DNA of 64,000 bases from Arhodomonas aquaeolei DSM 8974 (GTDB taxonomy: Bacteria > Pseudomonadota > Gammaproteobacteria > Nitrococcales > Nitrococcaceae). How positions within the stretch are numbered: position 1 is the stretch's first letter; each line of letters starts with the position of its first letter. The notes under the pieces are model-generated. The model was given only the letters and a program-made list of their open reading frames with translations. It did no database searches and was not told where the DNA came from. The translations under genes were made by a program, and so were the position numbers. The stretch is taken from contig NZ_KB894802.1 in the NCBI RefSeq assembly GCF_000374645.1, forward strand, positions 187,924 through 251,923, in the 5' to 3' direction. Shown here one piece after another: positions 1,601 through 62,520 of this stretch.

Positions 1601-1625
1601 TCGTTTCCGGGTTGATCCGGCCTGT

Positions 1626-1976
1626 CGCACACGGCCTGCGGCTGTGCCCGGCCCATCTGTTTCGGCCTTGACCCCTTCGGCTGGTGGTGTGAGACCTGCG
1701 TCCCGGACGCGGGATTCGGCGAGCCGGGCGGGTAGGTCGTGCGCCGAAGGCGTGCGACGTCGCGGAGGACAGGCCGTCTTCTCGCACACGGCCTGCGGCC
1801 GTGCCCGGCCCATCTGTTTCGGCCTTGACCCCTTCGGCTGGTGGTGTGAGACCTGCGTCCCGGACGCGGGATTCGGCGAGCCGGGCGGGTAGGTCGTGCG
1901 CCGAAGGCGTGCGACGTCGCGGAGGACAGGCCGTCTTCTCGCACACGGCCTGACGGCCGTGCCCGACCTACACGTT
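1626..1976. repeat. REP/BIME array between cheR and flgB (157-bp period)
   Basis: The gap 1601-2071 has no gene. It holds two tandem copies of a 157-bp unit plus part of a third (for example GCCCATCTGT at 1651 and again at 1808; GTAG at 1732 and 1889). Each unit has a GTAG-led hairpin (GTCGTGCGCC-GAA-GGCGTGCGAC, paired with two wobble positions) and an inverted hairpin ending in a degenerate or intact CCTAC. These are REP elements of the kind mobilised by RAYT proteins; a RAYT gene is at 13577-14071. Confidence 0.85.
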
Positions 1977-6610: not shown

Positions 6611-6976
6611 GTAGGTCGTGCGCCGAAGGCGTGCGACTTCTCCGACGGCGCCCCGCGGGGTGCCGGGCGTGCCGTGTCGCCCACGGCCCGGGATGTCGGC
6701 TGCCGGGAGCAGCCGACCTACGGGCAAGGCGTAGCCCCGGTAGGTCGTGCGCCGAAGGCGTGCGACTTCTCCGATGGCGCCCCGCGTGGCGCCGGGCGTG
6801 CCGTGTCGCCCACGGCCCGGGATGTCGGCTGCCGGGAGCAGCCGACCTACGGAAAAGGCGTAGCCCAGGTAGGTCGTGCGCCGAAGGCGTGCGACTTCTC
6901 CGATGGCGCCCCGCGTGGCGCCGGGCGTGCCGTGTCGCACACGGCCCGGGATGTCGGCTGCCGGGAGCAGCCGACC
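6611..6976. repeat. REP/BIME array between flgG and flgH (3 x 129 bp)
   Basis: Three tandem copies start with GTAG at 6611, 6740 and 6869, a period of 129 bp. Each unit pairs a GTAG-GTCGTGCGCC-GAA-GGCGTGCGAC hairpin with an inverted hairpin of another type (reverse strand GTAGGTCGGCTGCTCCCGGC followed by AGCCGAC). Because 129 is 43 codons, one frame stays open through all three copies and into flgH. The gap 6506-7018 contains nothing else recognisable apart from a short unique leader after flgG. Confidence 0.85.
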
Positions 6977-7018
6977 TGCGTGACGTCATGGCCCGCCGCG
7001 GGTGGCGGCCGTGCCGGC

Positions 7019-13111: not shown

Positions 13112-13525
13112 GTAGCTCGTGCACGGCGACCGGCCGTGTGCGGCTCCGTCCGCCACCCCCGGTAGGTCGTGCACGGCCGCCAGGCCGTGTGCGACATCCC
13201 GCCTACCGGGGCGAGAACGTCGCACGCCTTCGGCGCACGACCTACCATATCCGGCGGGCTATACACGGCGAGCGGCGGTGTGCCACGCGCCCGCTGCGCC
13301 GGGCCCGAAAACGCTCACCGCCGGCGTTCGCCACCCCAGCCGGTAGGTCGTGCACGGCCGCGAGGCCGTGTGCGACATCCCGCCTACCGGGGCGAGAACG
13401 TCGCACGCCTTCGGCGCACGACCTACCCATCCGGCGGGCTATGCACGGCGAGCGGACGTGGGCGGCTGCTCCGTCCGCCAACATCGGTAGGTCGTGCACG
13501 GCCAAAGGCCGTGTGCGACATCCCC
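13112..13525. repeat. REP/BIME cluster after flgL
   Basis: The gap 13090-13576 contains GTAG-led hairpins at 13112, 13162, 13343 and 13487 and inverted ones ending at 13245 and 13426. The main type here is GTAG-GTCGTGCACGGCC-loop-GGCCGTGTGCGAC, whose stem has the same two wobble pairs as the shorter REP type. Spacing between like elements is about 181 and 144 bp. The bases 13212-13381 recur on the far side of the RAYT gene. Confidence 0.85.
13212..13381. repeat. 170-bp flanking direct repeat, left copy
   Basis: This stretch, containing one inverted and one forward REP hairpin and the sequence between, is repeated almost base for base at 14152-14320 (one 1-base gap and a few substitutions). 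The two copies bracket the RAYT gene and are in the same orientation. Confidence 0.88.
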
Positions 13526-13576
13526 CGTCGGGCGCGCCTCCAACCGCCTGCGACATGGCACCTGCAACCCCACCAC

Positions 13577-14071
13577 TCACTCACGCCCGACATGCGGTGG
13601 TAGGGACGGCACCTGCTCGCCCCAATACGGCGGGTACACACCCGCGCGTACCAGTCGATGAAAACTCGACCACGGCCACGCCGCCGGACAGGCCACGAGG
13701 CCGTGGCGAACCGGATTGTAATGGACATAATCGAGGTGGTTGCGGAAGTCAGCCTCGTCGCGGATACAGTGCTCCCAGAACCTCGGTTGCCAGATGCGTC
13801 CGCGCTGCGCGCCCGCCGTCACGGCCCGTTTGATCAGGCTCCAGCGGGTGGCGAAATCGGCATCGTCCGGTGGCAACGTCCACACGCAGTGAAGATGGTC
13901 CGGCAGCAGCGTGATCGCCTCCATGCGAAACGGCCGGCGCTCGCGCGTTCCGCGGATCGCGGCACCGAGCAGGGCGCGGATGCCCGCGTCGCACAGCACG
14001 GCCCGCCGCCGGTAGGTCACAACGGTAAAGAAATAGGAACCACCCGGTATCCATGGGCGTCGGTATCGCAT
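13577..14071 (-). CDS. RAYT (REP-associated tyrosine transposase, TnpA-REP)
   Basis: Single-strand nuclease of the IS200/IS605-related Y1 HUH family that cleaves and joins REP hairpins. The HUH metal site is PDHLHCVW (His59, His61) and the catalytic tyrosine is probably Tyr115 in HLDYVHYNPVRHG, a RAYT hallmark. 164 residues from the ATG at 14071. The frame is open further upstream to 14356, but that part is translated REP sequence (the CDS starts after it) so the inner ATG, followed by RRPWIPGGSYFF, was chosen. It is intact, flanked on both sides by GTAG hairpins and by 170-bp direct repeats, and is the only transposase-like gene in the window. RAYTs are usually single-copy, domesticated genes. 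Confidence 0.92.
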   Translation of the reverse strand: MRYRRPWIPGGSYFFTVVTYRRRAVLCDAGIRALLGAAIRGTRERRPFRMEAITLLPDHLHCVWTLPPDDADFATRWSLIKRAVTAGAQRGRIWQPRFWEHCIRDEADFRNHLDYVHYNPVRHGLVACPAAWPWSSFHRLVRAGVYPPYWGEQVPSLPPHVGRE

Positions 14072-14151
14072 CCCTGCGTTCCCCGATGATCGATTCGTGT
14101 CGTTCGACCATCGTGGATCGCACTCGCGGTTGCAAGGAACGGTATCCGGCA

Positions 14152-14320
14152 CGAGAACGTCGCACGCCTTCGGCGCACGACCTACCATATCCGGCGGGCT
14201 ATACACGGCGAGCGGCGGTGTGCCACGCGCCCGCTGCGCTGGCCCGAAAACGCACACCGCCGGCGTTCGCCACCCCAGCCGGTAGGTCGTGCACGGCCGC
14301 GAGGCCGTGTGCGACATCCC
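14152..14320. repeat. 170-bp flanking direct repeat, right copy
   Basis: Near-identical to 13212-13381. It includes an inverted short REP (ending CCTAC at about 14185) and a forward long REP (GTAG at 14282). It lies immediately upstream of the RAYT start and ends 43 bases before the sulfotransferase stop codon. Confidence 0.88.
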
Positions 14321-14363: not shown

Positions 14364-16355
14364 CTATTCGAACGCCAGCGCCTCCCCCAGCCCGTTGATC
14401 AGCGGCTTGAGGTGCTTCTTGTAGTGCCGCCAGCGCTGCTTGGACTTCGTGTAGATCGGCTGGCGGACCTGGTCGTAGCTCGCCGTCAGGGTGCGTACGC
14501 CGGAGCGCGTGTGGTCCAGGCAGGCGTCGTCCCACGGCAGGTCACAGAACTCGAGCATCCGGCGGATTTCCAGCTCCGGGTCACTGACCAGGCGCTCGTA
14601 GTGCAGCTCGTGGATCGACAGCGGCAACGCCTCCCGCCAGTAGGCCATCAGGCGCCGGTAGTGGCGGTAGTAATGGGCCAGGTTGTCCTGGTCGTAGGCG
14701 AACTGCAGGCCCGAGGCGGCGAAGTTCTGGAAATAGCAGGACAGGCAGGTGTCCAGCGGGTTCCGGTTGCAGTGGATGATCCGCGCGTTGGGGAACAGCA
14801 GCGCGATCAGGCCGAGATGCATGAAGTTCTGCGGCATCTTGTCGGTGACCCGCAGTGTCTCGTCCGGCGCCAGCTCAGCGAGGAAGTCCAGGTACTGCCC
14901 GGCGGCCTTCGCCGCGGACTCCCGGGTGAGCTCCGGCACGCACTCCGGGTAGGGGGTGGTGACGTCCATGAGATCCGGCAGGGCGTTGGCGATGCTCTGG
15001 ATCTCGCGTAGCTCGCCGGCGGCGGTGACGCCGGGGTGGCTGGCGATGACCTGCTCGGTGAGGCTGGTGCCGGAGCGGGGCATGCCGACGATGAAGATTG
15101 GTCGCCGGGAGTCGCTGCCGATACCCGACAGGCGCTCGAACAGCGCCTTCGTGAAGGTCGTGGTCACCGCGTCGAACTGCTTTTCCGCGAACGCCCGGTC
15201 GTAGGTCCGGGGCTTGATCTCGTTGCCGCGCCGGAAGAAGTCGAAGGCCCGGTCGTAGTCGCCGATGTCGTCGTAGAGCTGCCCCGCGGTGAAGTAGAGG
15301 CCGTAGTGCGAGCGGCTGGCGAGCCTGCCGGACATGGCGCGGTCGACGATCTCCGCGGCCTGCTTCTGTTCGCCCATCCGGCGGGCGAGGGTGAGATAGG
15401 CCCCCAGGGTACCCGGGGCCACGGTGGCGTTGTTCTCGATCAGCGGCCGGACCAGCTCGAAGGCCTCGGCCTTGCGGCCGCTGCGTTCCAGCACCCGGGC
15501 CTTGATGCTGACGAGCTGGTCGTCGCCGGGTTTGAGTGCCAGTGCCCGTTCGATCGCATCCTGCGCCTGGTCCCACTCCCCCTGGCCGGCCAGGATCTCC
15601 GCCATCAGTCCCAGCCCCGCGGTGTCCTCGGGGGCCAGCGCGATCGCCTTGCGAGCCTCTCGGTAGGCCTGTTCGTGGCCGCCGGAGTGGGCGAGGCACT
15701 CAGCGAGCAGCCGGTGGAAGCGTGCCTCGCCGGGGGCGTAACGCACCAGGCGCTTCGCCCAGGCCAGCGCTTCCTGCGGGCGCGCCAGCGCCACGAGGGT
15801 GGAGGCCAGTGCGAAGAGTCCGAGGACGTGGCGGTTGTCGAGGTTGACTGCTGCCCGCGCGATGTTCTCCGCCGAATCGTGCTGGCCGATCTCCAGCAGC
15901 GCCTCGGCGAGGTTGGCGAAGGCGTCCGGATCCCGCGGGGCCGCGACCACGGCGCGGTTGAGCACCTCGGTGGCCTGGGCGTATTCGCGGCGCGCCTTAT
16001 GGATAATGCCGATGTTGAGCAGGGCCTTGGCGCAGTGTTCGTCGTGCGCCAGCGCCTGCTCGAATACGGCCCGGGCCTCGTCCAGACGCCTCTCGCCGTA
16101 CAGGGCGGTGCCCTGATTGCAGAGGAAGACCGTATCGCCGGGGGCGAGCTCGACGGCCATGCCGAAGAGCTGGCCGGCCACGTCGTGCTGGCCGATCCGC
16201 ATCGCGAGCAGACCCAGGCCGTTGTAGGCGTCGGCGTTCTCGGGATCGTCCGCGAGGACTGCGCGGTAGCCCGCCTCGGCCTCCTGCAGGCGTCCGGCGC
16301 CCTGGTGCAGGTCGGCCAGCTCCAGGCGCTCGTTGTCCGTGCCGGCGTTAGTCAT
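14364..16355 (-). CDS. TPR-repeat sulfotransferase
   Basis: 663 residues from the ATG at 16355 (upstream AGGTGG). Residues 1 to about 340 are successive tetratricopeptide repeats (for example AEAGYRAVLADDPENADAYNGLGLL). The C-terminal part is a PAPS-dependent sulfotransferase: the 5'-phosphosulfate loop FIVGMPRSGTSLTEQ near residue 425 and the 3'-phosphate segment HCNRNPLDTCLSCYFQ near 525. No signal peptide or membrane segment, so probably cytoplasmic. It is convergent with flgL and divergent from fliC, so it sits between filament genes; a role in sulfating flagellin, its glycan or another surface molecule is a guess from position. Family assignment is firm, substrate unknown. Confidence 0.85.
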   Translation of the reverse strand: MTNAGTDNERLELADLHQGAGRLQEAEAGYRAVLADDPENADAYNGLGLLAMRIGQHDVAGQLFGMAVELAPGDTVFLCNQGTALYGERRLDEARAVFEQALAHDEHCAKALLNIGIIHKARREYAQATEVLNRAVVAAPRDPDAFANLAEALLEIGQHDSAENIARAAVNLDNRHVLGLFALASTLVALARPQEALAWAKRLVRYAPGEARFHRLLAECLAHSGGHEQAYREARKAIALAPEDTAGLGLMAEILAGQGEWDQAQDAIERALALKPGDDQLVSIKARVLERSGRKAEAFELVRPLIENNATVAPGTLGAYLTLARRMGEQKQAAEIVDRAMSGRLASRSHYGLYFTAGQLYDDIGDYDRAFDFFRRGNEIKPRTYDRAFAEKQFDAVTTTFTKALFERLSGIGSDSRRPIFIVGMPRSGTSLTEQVIASHPGVTAAGELREIQSIANALPDLMDVTTPYPECVPELTRESAAKAAGQYLDFLAELAPDETLRVTDKMPQNFMHLGLIALLFPNARIIHCNRNPLDTCLSCYFQNFAASGLQFAYDQDNLAHYYRHYRRLMAYWREALPLSIHELHYERLVSDPELEIRRMLEFCDLPWDDACLDHTRSGVRTLTASYDQVRQPIYTKSKQRWRHYKKHLKPLINGLGEALAFE

Positions 16356-16510
16356 GTCTGTCGTTCCACCTGTTTGTCCGTCCACGCGGGAGTGTCGCAT
16401 CCACGGCGCCTGCCGCCCAGCGGGCCCCGCCATGGCGCCTCCCGCGGCCCGTACGGGGCATTGCAAGGGGCATGCCGTCGCCGATTGGATAATCTCTTGT
16501 GGTCAGGGGG

Positions 16511-20955: not shown

Positions 20956-21225
20956 GTAGGTCGTGCACGGCCGCAGGCCGTGTGCGAGAGCTCCCGCCGA
21001 CGCGCGACACGGCGCTACTCGAGACGTCGCACGCCTTCGGTGCACGACCTACCGAACCGTCCGGTAGGTCGTGCACGGCCGTGAGGCCGTGTGCGACAGC
21101 TCCCGCCGATGCGCGACACGGCGCTACCCGAGACGTCGCACGCCTTCGGCGCACGACCTACCGAACCGTCCGGTAGGCCGTGTGCGACAGCTCCCGCCGA
21201 CGCGCGACACGGCACCAACGGAGGC
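20956..21225. repeat. REP/BIME array between fliT-like gene and fleQ (108/109-bp period)
   Basis: GTAG starts are at 20956, 21064 and 21173. The first two units are 108-109 bp, each a long forward REP (GTCGTGCACGGCC type) and an inverted short REP. The third begins GTAGGCCGTGTGCGAC: the first stem arm and loop of the long REP have been lost. The gap 20920-21427 holds nothing else beyond about 200 bases of unique sequence before fleQ, which probably includes its promoter (a TTGACG at 21291 is a possible -35). Confidence 0.82.
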
Positions 21226-22837: not shown

Positions 22838-22904
22838 CCGGGGTGTGGGGAGCAGGATGGCGTTTCGCGGATATCCCGGGCGGCGGGGGGTTGACCGAAG
22901 ACGT

Positions 22905-23439
22905 CGCACACGGCCGTTGGCCGTGCCCGACCTACAAAGGTGGGTAGGTCGTGCGCCGCAGGCGTGCGACGTCTTTCGGGGCGCCCGAGCGGGGTCAGGG
23001 ACGTCGCACACGGCTTGGCGGCCGTGCCCGACCTACAACGATGGGTAGGTCGTGCGCCGCAGGCGTGCGACGTCTTTCGGGGCGCCCGAGCGGGGTCAGG
23101 GATGTCGCACACGGCCTGGCGGCCGTGCCCGACCTACAACGGTGGGTAGGTCGTGCGCCGCAGGCGTGCGACGTCTTTCGGGGCGCCCGAGCGGGGTCAG
23201 GGATGTCGCACACGGCCTGGCGGCCGTGCCCGACCTACAACGATGGGTAGGTCGTGCGCCGAAGGCGTGCGACGACTTTCGGGGTGCCCGAGCGGGGTCA
23301 GGGACGTCGCACACGGCCTGGCGGCCGTGCCCGACCTACAACGATGGGTAGGTCGTGCGCCGCAGGCGTGCGACGTCTTTCGGGGCGCCTGAGCGGGGTT
23401 AGGGATGTCGCACACGGCCTGGCGGCCGTGTCCGGCCTA
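22905..23439. repeat. REP/BIME tandem array between fleQ and fliE (5 x 101 bp)
   Basis: GTAG at 22944, 23045, 23146, 23247 and 23348: exact 101-bp spacing. Each unit is a REPIN: a forward short REP (GTCGTGCGCC-GCA-GGCGTGCGAC) and an inverted long REP (reverse strand GTAGGTCGGGCACGGCC...), together 93 bp, plus an 8-bp spacer. Units differ at only a few bases. An inverted half-unit precedes the first. This is the most uniform array in the window. Confidence 0.9.
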
Positions 23440-23472
23440 CCCTTGGCGGCGGGAGCCACACCTTCTCCCCAA

Positions 23473-23497
23473 CCCCTCTCCTGTGAAGGGAGAGGGG
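23473..23497. repeat. CCCCTCTCC/GGAGAGGGG hairpin
   Basis: Perfect 9-bp inverted repeat with a short loop between the BIME array and fliE. It resembles a common class of intergenic C/T-rich palindromes and differs from the GTAG REPs. No function can be assigned. Confidence 0.5.
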
Positions 23498-23519
23498 CAC
23501 GGCGCGGTCGGCTTGGCCG

Positions 23520-23546
23520 GTAGGTCGGCTGCTCCTGGCAGCCGAC
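23520..23546 (+). repeat. solo REP of the GTCGGCTGC type
   Basis: GTAG followed by GTCGGCTGC-TCCTG-GCAGCCGAC, a perfect 9-bp stem. It is the forward version of the hairpin found inverted in the flgG-flgH array, showing that this third REP type also carries the GTAG tag and occurs alone. Confidence 0.75.
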
Positions 23547-24035: not shown

Positions 24036-25865
24036 ATGGCGCAGGCGAGTCAGGCACTCACGACACAGCCCGGGCAGCAGCCCGCCACCGATACCGCCGG
24101 GTCGGGACCGCGGCGCGACGGTCAGGGGCGGCTCGGCCGGCTCATCAGCGAGTACCTGGGCGACCGGGTATTCCGTCAGCTCGCGCTGGTGCTTGGCCTG
24201 GCAGTGGCGATCGCCGCCGGTGTCGGCCTGGTGATGTGGGTGCAGGAGCCCATGTACCGGCCCCTGTTCTCGGATCTGCCCGCCGAGGACGCCAGTGCCG
24301 TGATGGACGCCCTGCAGACGGCGAACATCCCGTTCCAGGTGGACGAGAACAGCGGCGCCATCATGGTGCCGATGGATCGCATCTACGACGCGCGCATGAC
24401 GCTCTCCGCCCAGGGCCTGCCGCAGACCGGTGGTGTGGGGTTCGAGAGCCTGCGCAAGGATCCGGGCTTCGGCACCAGCCGGTTCCTGCAGACGGCCCGG
24501 TTCCACAGGGCGCTGGAGACCGAGCTCGGCCGCACCATAACCAGCCTCAACGCCGTGCGCTCGGCGCGCGTGCATCTCGCCATCCCCGAGCGCTCGGCGT
24601 TCGTCAGCGAGGACCGCAAGCCCACCGCATCGGTAACCGTCACGCTATTTCCCGGCCGGTCGCTTAGCGACGGCCAGGTCCGGGCGGTGGTCAACCTCGT
24701 CGCCGGCGCGGTTCCCGAGCTCAGCGCCGAGCGTGTTTCAGTGGTCGATCAGGACGGCACGCTGCTCACCGAGCAGTCCGGGGGCAACGGTGCCGAGGCC
24801 AGCGGTGAGCAGCTCGCCCAGCAGCGGCGTATCGAGCGGAACTACGTCCAGCGCATTCGCGATCTGCTCGCGCCCATCGTGGGCCGGGACAAGGTGCGGG
24901 CGCAGGTGGATGCGCAGCTTGACTTTTCGGTCACCGAGCAGACCGAGGAGCGCTACGACCCGGATCAGACGGCGCTGCGCAGCGAGCAGATTTCCAATGA
25001 TCGTTCCGTGCGCGGCGAGGGGCCGAACGGTGTCCCCGGTGCCCTGACCAATCAGCCGCCGGCGGGCGGCCAGTTGGCCCCTGTACAGCAGGGACAGCAG
25101 GGTCAACAGGGCGCGAACGCTCAGGGTCAGGGCGGCCAGGGCGGCCAGGGCGGCCAGGGCGGCCAGGGCGGTCAGGGCGGCGCCCAGACGCAGGTGGTGG
25201 ACGCCAGCGAGAGCGCGACCCGCAACTACGAAGTCAGCCGGGTGGTCAGCCACCGCAAGGGCGAGGTGGGCACGATCCAGCGCCTCTCGGTGGCGGTGTT
25301 GCTGGACCAGCCGACCACGACCAATGATGCGGGTGAGACGGTGGCCGATCCGTTTTCCGCCGACCAGCTCGAGGAGATCCGCTCGCTGGTCCAGCGCGCT
25401 GTGGGCTTCAACCCCGGCAGGGGCGATACACTGGACGTGGTGAGCACGGAATTCCGTGCCCCGGTGGAGCAGGCGCCGGACGTGTCGCCGCCGCTCTGGG
25501 AGCAGCCCTGGGTATGGGAGCTCGGGCGGTTGCTGCTCGCGACCATCGTGGGGCTGGTGTTGATCCTGGCAGTGATTCGCCCGCTCATCCAGGGCCTGCT
25601 CGGACGCGACCGGCGCCGCGACGGTGAGGCGCGCGAGGACGGCGAGGCGGCAGCTCAGAGCGCGCAGCTCGAGGGGCAGGGTGCTGAGCAGGCGCAGCTT
25701 ATGGCCGAGCGGGCCCAGCGACAGGTCGAGAGCGGCGGTGGCAGCCGGGGCAGCGAGGAGTACGAGCAGCGCGTGCAGGCGGCACGCGAGATGGCCAGTA
25801 GCGAGCCGGCACTGGCGGCGAACGTCATCAAGAGCTGGCTCAGTCCGGAAGGCAGCAGCGAGTAG
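24036..25865 (+). CDS. fliF: FliF, MS-ring protein
   Basis: Inner-membrane ring on which motor and export gate assemble. 609 residues. Membrane segments near residues 45-68 (LALVLGLAVAIAAGVGLVM) and 488-510 (LLLATIVGLVLILAVIRPL); ring-building motifs NIPFQVDENSGAIMVP and QGLPQTGGVGFE between. The periplasmic loop contains a Gly-Gln-rich tract (about 345-385) encoded partly by 9-bp DNA repeats. Ends with the FliG-binding cytoplasmic tail. 14 bases after fliE, 6 before fliG. Confidence 0.96.
   Translation: MAQASQALTTQPGQQPATDTAGSGPRRDGQGRLGRLISEYLGDRVFRQLALVLGLAVAIAAGVGLVMWVQEPMYRPLFSDLPAEDASAVMDALQTANIPFQVDENSGAIMVPMDRIYDARMTLSAQGLPQTGGVGFESLRKDPGFGTSRFLQTARFHRALETELGRTITSLNAVRSARVHLAIPERSAFVSEDRKPTASVTVTLFPGRSLSDGQVRAVVNLVAGAVPELSAERVSVVDQDGTLLTEQSGGNGAEASGEQLAQQRRIERNYVQRIRDLLAPIVGRDKVRAQVDAQLDFSVTEQTEERYDPDQTALRSEQISNDRSVRGEGPNGVPGALTNQPPAGGQLAPVQQGQQGQQGANAQGQGGQGGQGGQGGQGGQGGAQTQVVDASESATRNYEVSRVVSHRKGEVGTIQRLSVAVLLDQPTTTNDAGETVADPFSADQLEEIRSLVQRAVGFNPGRGDTLDVVSTEFRAPVEQAPDVSPPLWEQPWVWELGRLLLATIVGLVLILAVIRPLIQGLLGRDRRRDGEAREDGEAAAQSAQLEGQGAEQAQLMAERAQRQVESGGGSRGSEEYEQRVQAAREMASSEPALAANVIKSWLSPEGSSE
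25131..25175 (+). repeat. five 9-bp tandem repeats inside fliF
   Basis: GGCGGCCAG occurs four times in a row followed by GGCGGTCAG. The 9-bp unit encodes Gly-Gly-Gln, so copy-number change would lengthen or shorten the loop without a frameshift. Confidence 0.9.
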
Positions 25866-62433: not shown

Positions 62434-62520
62434 CAAGACGTCGCACGCCTGCGGCGCACGAGCTAGCGAGCCAGCCGGTTAGGTCATGCACGGTCCCGGC
62501 CGAATGCCCCGGCGCTGTCA
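62434..62520. repeat. degenerate REP pair
   Basis: In the gene-free stretch 62265-62721 an inverted short REP (GTCGCACGCCTGCGGCGCACGA, with CTAG instead of CTAC) is followed by a decayed long REP (GTTAGGTCATGCACGGTC). It is the only REP trace outside the flagellar region. The rest of the gap holds a TATAAT at 62652 without a matching -35 and nothing else recognised. Confidence 0.6.

Follow-up and report, generated by a model that had tools for sequence, protein, structure and literature searches.

The 64-kb window analysed here, a stretch of 64,000 nucleotides from the genome of Arhodomonas aquaeolei DSM 8974, very probably contains a REPtron, that is, an IS200/IS605-related single-gene HUH transposase, RAYT1, surrounded by its cognate REPs in a BIME array. 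The case is built on the protein itself, on the layout of the hairpins around its gene and on the conservation, distribution and near-absence from relatives of these hairpins across the genome.

The RAYT1 gene and its flanking repeats

The locus comprises the following features:
13112..13195, (+): two additional long class 1 REPs, of which the first is degenerate; an array with a 181-bp unit starts here
13206..13380, no strand: left-hand ~175-bp direct repeat, containing a short (-) and a long (+) class 1 REP
13487..13519, (+): class 1 long REP with a GTAG head, 3' side of RAYT1, antisense orientation
13577..14071, (-): RAYT1 (TnpAREP) coding sequence, ATG at 14071, 164 amino acids, no internal stop
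14146..14320, no strand: right-hand ~175-bp direct repeat, on the other side of RAYT1
14159..14185, (-): class 1 short REP with a GTAG head, 5' side of RAYT1, sense orientation

The gene is intact, as the earlier note, made from the sequence alone, had described it. In a profile search, the protein matches the NCBIfam family NF047646 (REP_Tyr_transpos) with 170.2 bits (cut-off 80), and the general Y1_Tnp profile gives 18 bits, under its cut-off of 23. The sole PDB match is Escherichia coli TnpAREP (4ER8, E=2e-45), and the alignment to this structure shows conservation of the HUH residues His59 and His61 and of the catalytic Tyr115. Both motifs named in the earlier note are present, with PDHLHC (HUH) and HLDYVHYNPV (Tyr) aligned to EHMHC and HVDYIYINPV of the E. 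coli protein, in which Y115F is a catalytic mutant (PMC8266576). In group 2 RAYTs, a G and an E of the C-terminal tail contact GTAG; in E. coli TnpAREP, these are the adjacent G160 and E161 (PMC8266576). RAYT1 ends in ...GRE, an ending common to RAYT2 (see below) and to the homologues from Salinisphaera and from a genome of the same family (G003), and this tail may make a similar contact.

RAYT1 lies between two inverted REPs, a short one 114 bp upstream (sense) and a long one 93 bp downstream (antisense). This is the canonical REPtron layout within a BIME-like array, and inverted GTAG REPs on both sides are general for RAYTs (PMC2817692); the claim of matching hairpins on either side of the gene thus stands. 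The ~175-bp direct repeats that bound RAYT1 are identical in 170 of 176 positions (97%). Degenerate hairpin-like repeats, GGGCTATACACGGCGAGCGGCGGTGTGC, occur between the REPs of this array (13249-13283, 13429-13463 and 14189-14223) and are perhaps decayed long class 1 REPs.

Hairpins across the window

The window contains 36 hairpins, namely 16 short class 1 (GTAG-GTCGTGCGCC-GNA-GGCGTGCGAC), 16 long class 1 (GTAG-GTCGKGCACGGCC-loop-GGCCGTGTGCGAC) and 4 class 2 (GTAG-GTCGGCTGC-TCCYG-GCAGCCGAC), with an exact GTAG head in 32. All except one are located in five flagellar or chemotaxis gaps: cheR|flgB, flgG|flgH, flgL|TPR-sulfotransferase (the RAYT1 array), fliT|fleQ and fleQ|fliE. Apart from the RAYT1 locus, the hairpins are arranged as follows:
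1624..1971: REP array cheR|flgB, long class 1 (-) alternating with short (+), 157-bp unit
6611..6979: REP array flgG|flgH, mixed-class, short class 1 (+) and class 2 (-) in turn, 129-bp unit x3
20956..21208: REP array fliT|fleQ, class 1 long (+) and short (-), 109-bp unit
22903..23546: REP array fleQ|fliE, class 1 long (-) and short (+), 101-bp unit x5
23520-23546: class 2 REP within the fleQ|fliE array
62440..62466, (-): single short class 1 hairpin away from the flagellar region, its head decayed to CTAGC

With the exception of one pair, orientation alternates between neighbouring hairpins of an array. The earlier count of about 30 hairpins, all but two in flagellar gaps, was right in the flagellar concentration but not in the numbers, which are 36 with a single outlier. 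The treatment of all hairpins as one family had to be abandoned: there are at least two classes, class 1 comes in two length forms, and the four class 2 hairpins of the window are of the kind found around RAYT2, with a 9-bp stem free of wobbles.

Two further repeats were observed in the window. A third palindrome family, CCCCTCTCC-TGTGAA-GGGAGAGGGG, which lacks GTAG, is represented at 23473-23497 (contig C3:211396-211420); its pattern has 29 matches in this genome, 8 in G003 and none in the other 22 genomes searched. The fliF reading frame contains several units of a nine-base tandem repeat (GGCCAGGGC) at 25113-25180.

Class 1 REPs in the whole genome

When the 3.96-Mb genome was searched with the hairpin alone (GTAG absent from the query, up to 3 mismatches), 90 short class 1 copies were found, 54 of them exact, compared with 1 for the reversed control pattern; the long form has 18 copies. 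GTAG directly precedes the hairpin on its 5' side in 73 of the 90 short copies, in 51 of the 54 exact ones and in 15 of the 18 long ones, so the loss of GTAG conservation that the earlier note named as the outcome to watch for in a genome-wide alignment is not seen. High copy number is accompanied by intergenic placement, as expected of REPs, the placement being assessed for the window copies (35 of 36 in gaps).

The two wobbles reported from the window hairpins also prove to be conserved. Pair 5 of the short stem is T.G in 83 and pair 6 is G.T in 88 of the 90 copies, while Watson-Crick pairing holds at the remaining eight positions in 84-90 of the 90, which makes the tandem wobbles a conserved feature; at pair 3, there are seven compensatory double changes from C-G to T-A. 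The irregular stem zone of group 2 REPs is accordingly present in class 1, whereas the wobble-free stems of class 2 would lack it. The wobbles make the short class 1 hairpin stronger on the GTAG strand (-9.2 kcal/mol with DNA parameters) than on the complement (-6.6), where they turn into C.A and A.C mismatches; for the class 2 hairpin, the two strands hardly differ (-12.1 and -11.6 kcal/mol). The wobble may serve strand discrimination.

The 90 short copies form 63 clusters. In the window, 16 copies make up 6 clusters, compared with 1.0 expected (Poisson p=0.0007), and five class 1 clusters are no more than 15 kb from RAYT1, where 0.5 would be expected. That REPs gather around their rayt gene has been published before (PMC2817692, PMC8266576). 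The window arrays consist of tandem units of 101, 129, 157, 181 and 109 bp, and much of the local hairpin density is tandem duplication. Class 1 or related REPs are also found ~0.5 kb or less from the ends of contigs C9, C16, C17, C18, C20, C25, C29 and C42; the arrays probably break the assembly, and the true copy numbers may be higher.

A second RAYT with its own class of REPs

The earlier note asked for a check that the RAYT is single copy, and it is not: there are two RAYTs in the genome, and each sits among REPs of its own class. RAYT2, in the region 41111-44602 of contig C10, is 62% identical to RAYT1 and is surrounded by class 2 REPs in a 125/126-bp tandem array. The two REP classes share GTAGGTCG-type heads. 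Class 2 has 67 exact pattern matches in the genome, which is the safe figure; the raw count of 239 does not serve as a copy number, since at 2-3 mismatches the near-symmetric pattern also hits a palindrome on its other strand. The RAYT2 array contains a run of N.

The exact copies within 15 kb divide between class 1 and class 2 as 14:4 at RAYT1 and 3:14 at RAYT2 (Fisher p=0.0006, counted per copy); counted per cluster, the split is 5:2 versus 2:4 and is non-significant (p=0.29). Within 5 kb, RAYT1 has exact class 1 copies and no exact class 2 copy, and the reverse holds at RAYT2. The two classes nevertheless co-cluster, given that class 1 clusters are enriched near RAYT2 as well (4 within +-15 kb, 0.5 expected) and that an exact class 2 copy lies no more than 1 kb from one third of the class 1 clusters. 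The class 1 relics near RAYT2 are degenerate.

Relatives and the position of the gene

Equal abundance of the hairpins in relatives, which the earlier note had set against its own reading, is not observed: among 75 other genomes, the class 1 pattern has 1-3 matches in three and no match in the others, compared with 90 here. Class 2 is also nearly private, with 15 matches in G003, mostly stem variants. RAYT homologues are present in 28 of the 75 genomes, and in most cases GTAG hairpins particular to the homologue stand on one side of it or on both. Named relatives gave homologues of 46-60% and included no close species. RAYT1, RAYT2 and the RAYT of G003 (65% identical) form one clade (support 100/98), with uncertain inner order in the tree.

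The G003 gene shares flagellar locus and strand with RAYT1 but not the gap: it stands between fliT and fleQ, whereas RAYT1 is found between flgL and the TPR-sulfotransferase gene (14364-16466). The fliT|fleQ gap of the window has class 1 REPs but no RAYT. The spacing between fliT and fleQ is only ~150 bp in two other genomes (G002 and G007). The TPR-sulfotransferase gene is on the (-) strand here and on the (+) strand directly after flgL in G003 and G004. The RAYTs of other relatives with examined neighbourhoods lie outside the flagellar locus; one of them, in G046, has a fleQ-like regulator ~5 kb away and no other flagellar gene among those tested. Because the RAYT of the closest relative occupies another gap of the same locus, the gene has probably shifted locally. 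The simplest reading of this comparison of gene orders is that events in the REP arrays may have moved the RAYT from one gap to another, in either direction. RAYTs have been reported without changes of chromosomal location in the founding paper (PMC2817692), and RAYTs in different gaps of one locus provide a contrasting comparative case.

Mechanism and alternative explanations

Most probably, RAYT1 would bind class 1 REPs where replication forks expose them as single strands, and would recognize both the 5' GTAG and the hairpin with its two tandem G.T wobbles; Tyr115 would cleave beside the hairpin, and the ends would then be joined. REPs would spread as inverted pairs, preferentially into gaps near the RAYT1 gene, and the subsequent tandem growth of the arrays would be largely a matter of recombination or slippage. 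A more tentative scenario, to which we give less than even credence, adds that RAYT1 and RAYT2 diverged to different stems (tandem G.T wobble versus perfect), that the wobble is a strand mark, by which the hairpin would be favoured on the GTAG strand alone, and that the RAYT shifted between flagellar gaps.

REPs of other bacteria, such as those of E. coli, have secondary roles in the host. The hairpins could similarly be mainly host elements (transcription terminators, mRNA-stabilizing sites or sites of DNA architecture) next to an incidental RAYT, as their location between genes of one operon-rich region and such roles of REPs elsewhere might suggest. This is very improbable, because GTAG lies outside the hairpin and is not needed for folding, yet is kept in 73 of 90 copies, because the copies occur in both orientations and are lineage-private, and because the RAYTs of relatives have GTAG hairpins of their own. 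The terminator variant was rejected for the RAYT1 locus, where no terminator-like T-tract site was found between 13000 and 14400 (0.7 expected). It is also improbable that RAYT2 alone serves both classes, with RAYT1 placed passively in class 1 arrays. Co-clustering of the classes, their alternation in the 129-bp unit at 6611-6979 and the enrichment of class 1 clusters near RAYT2 speak for such an arrangement; the mutually exclusive exact copies within 5 kb of each gene speak against it, as do the three RAYTs of Pseudomonas fluorescens SBW25, each beside a separate REP group (PMC3116915). The class specificity of RAYT1 that the REPtron explanation predicts has against it the co-clustering of the classes and the non-significant count per cluster.

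One sub-case of the REPtron explanation differs from it in present activity alone. RAYT1 might have made the class 1 REPs and since become inactive, with the arrays persisting by recombination alone, a reading that deserves serious consideration although we would not bet on it. Tandem units account for many copies, and the class 1 relics near RAYT2 have degenerated, as expected of a decayed element; the intact reading frame with its catalytic residues, the 54 exact hairpins among 90 and the 97% identity of the flanking repeats are harder to reconcile with decay. Judging from the sequence, present activity of RAYT1 is possible; the "probably active" of the earlier note goes further than the evidence.

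Comparison with known systems

The element is a REPtron of the E. coli type, a well-described kind of bacterial element, of which it is a new example. RAYT1 resembles E. coli TnpAREP (YafM, 4ER8; RAYT group 2) in full-length homology, HUH motif and Tyr115, and its REPs resemble the E. coli y and z REPs in the GTAG head, the imperfect stem and the alternation of short and long forms in BIMEs around the gene. The differences are in the stem irregularity, a tandem T.G/G.T at pairs 5-6 instead of the AA/GC mismatch of E. coli REPs, and in the presence of a second RAYT with a wobble-free class.

In P. fluorescens SBW25, GI, GII and GIII REPINs are accompanied by three RAYTs, one REP group beside each, and mixed GI-GIII tandem arrays occur (PMC3116915). 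Several RAYTs per genome, each by its own REP group, and mixed-class tandem arrays are thus common to both organisms, but here the two RAYTs belong to one lineage-specific clade with the G003 homologue and have different REP stems. The REP of the Thioalkalivibrio sp. HL-EbGR7 RAYT, GTAGGTCGGCCTTCAGGCCGAC (PMC2817692), has the head and stem base (GTAGGTCGG...CCGAC) of class 2 but a different upper stem and loop, and its row in Table 1 of that paper has no wobble class. REPs are concentrated around the rayt gene here as in the Marinomonas Ma/Mb and Thauera REPtrons (PMC2817692, PMC8266576); unlike in those, copies are also spread genome-wide (63 clusters). The window thus adds a clean REPtron from far outside the lineages studied so far, and its usefulness is increased by the related second transposase that sits among hairpins of another class: RAYT1 and RAYT2 are a natural pair for the question, already stated as open, of what makes a RAYT take an imperfect or a perfect REP stem.
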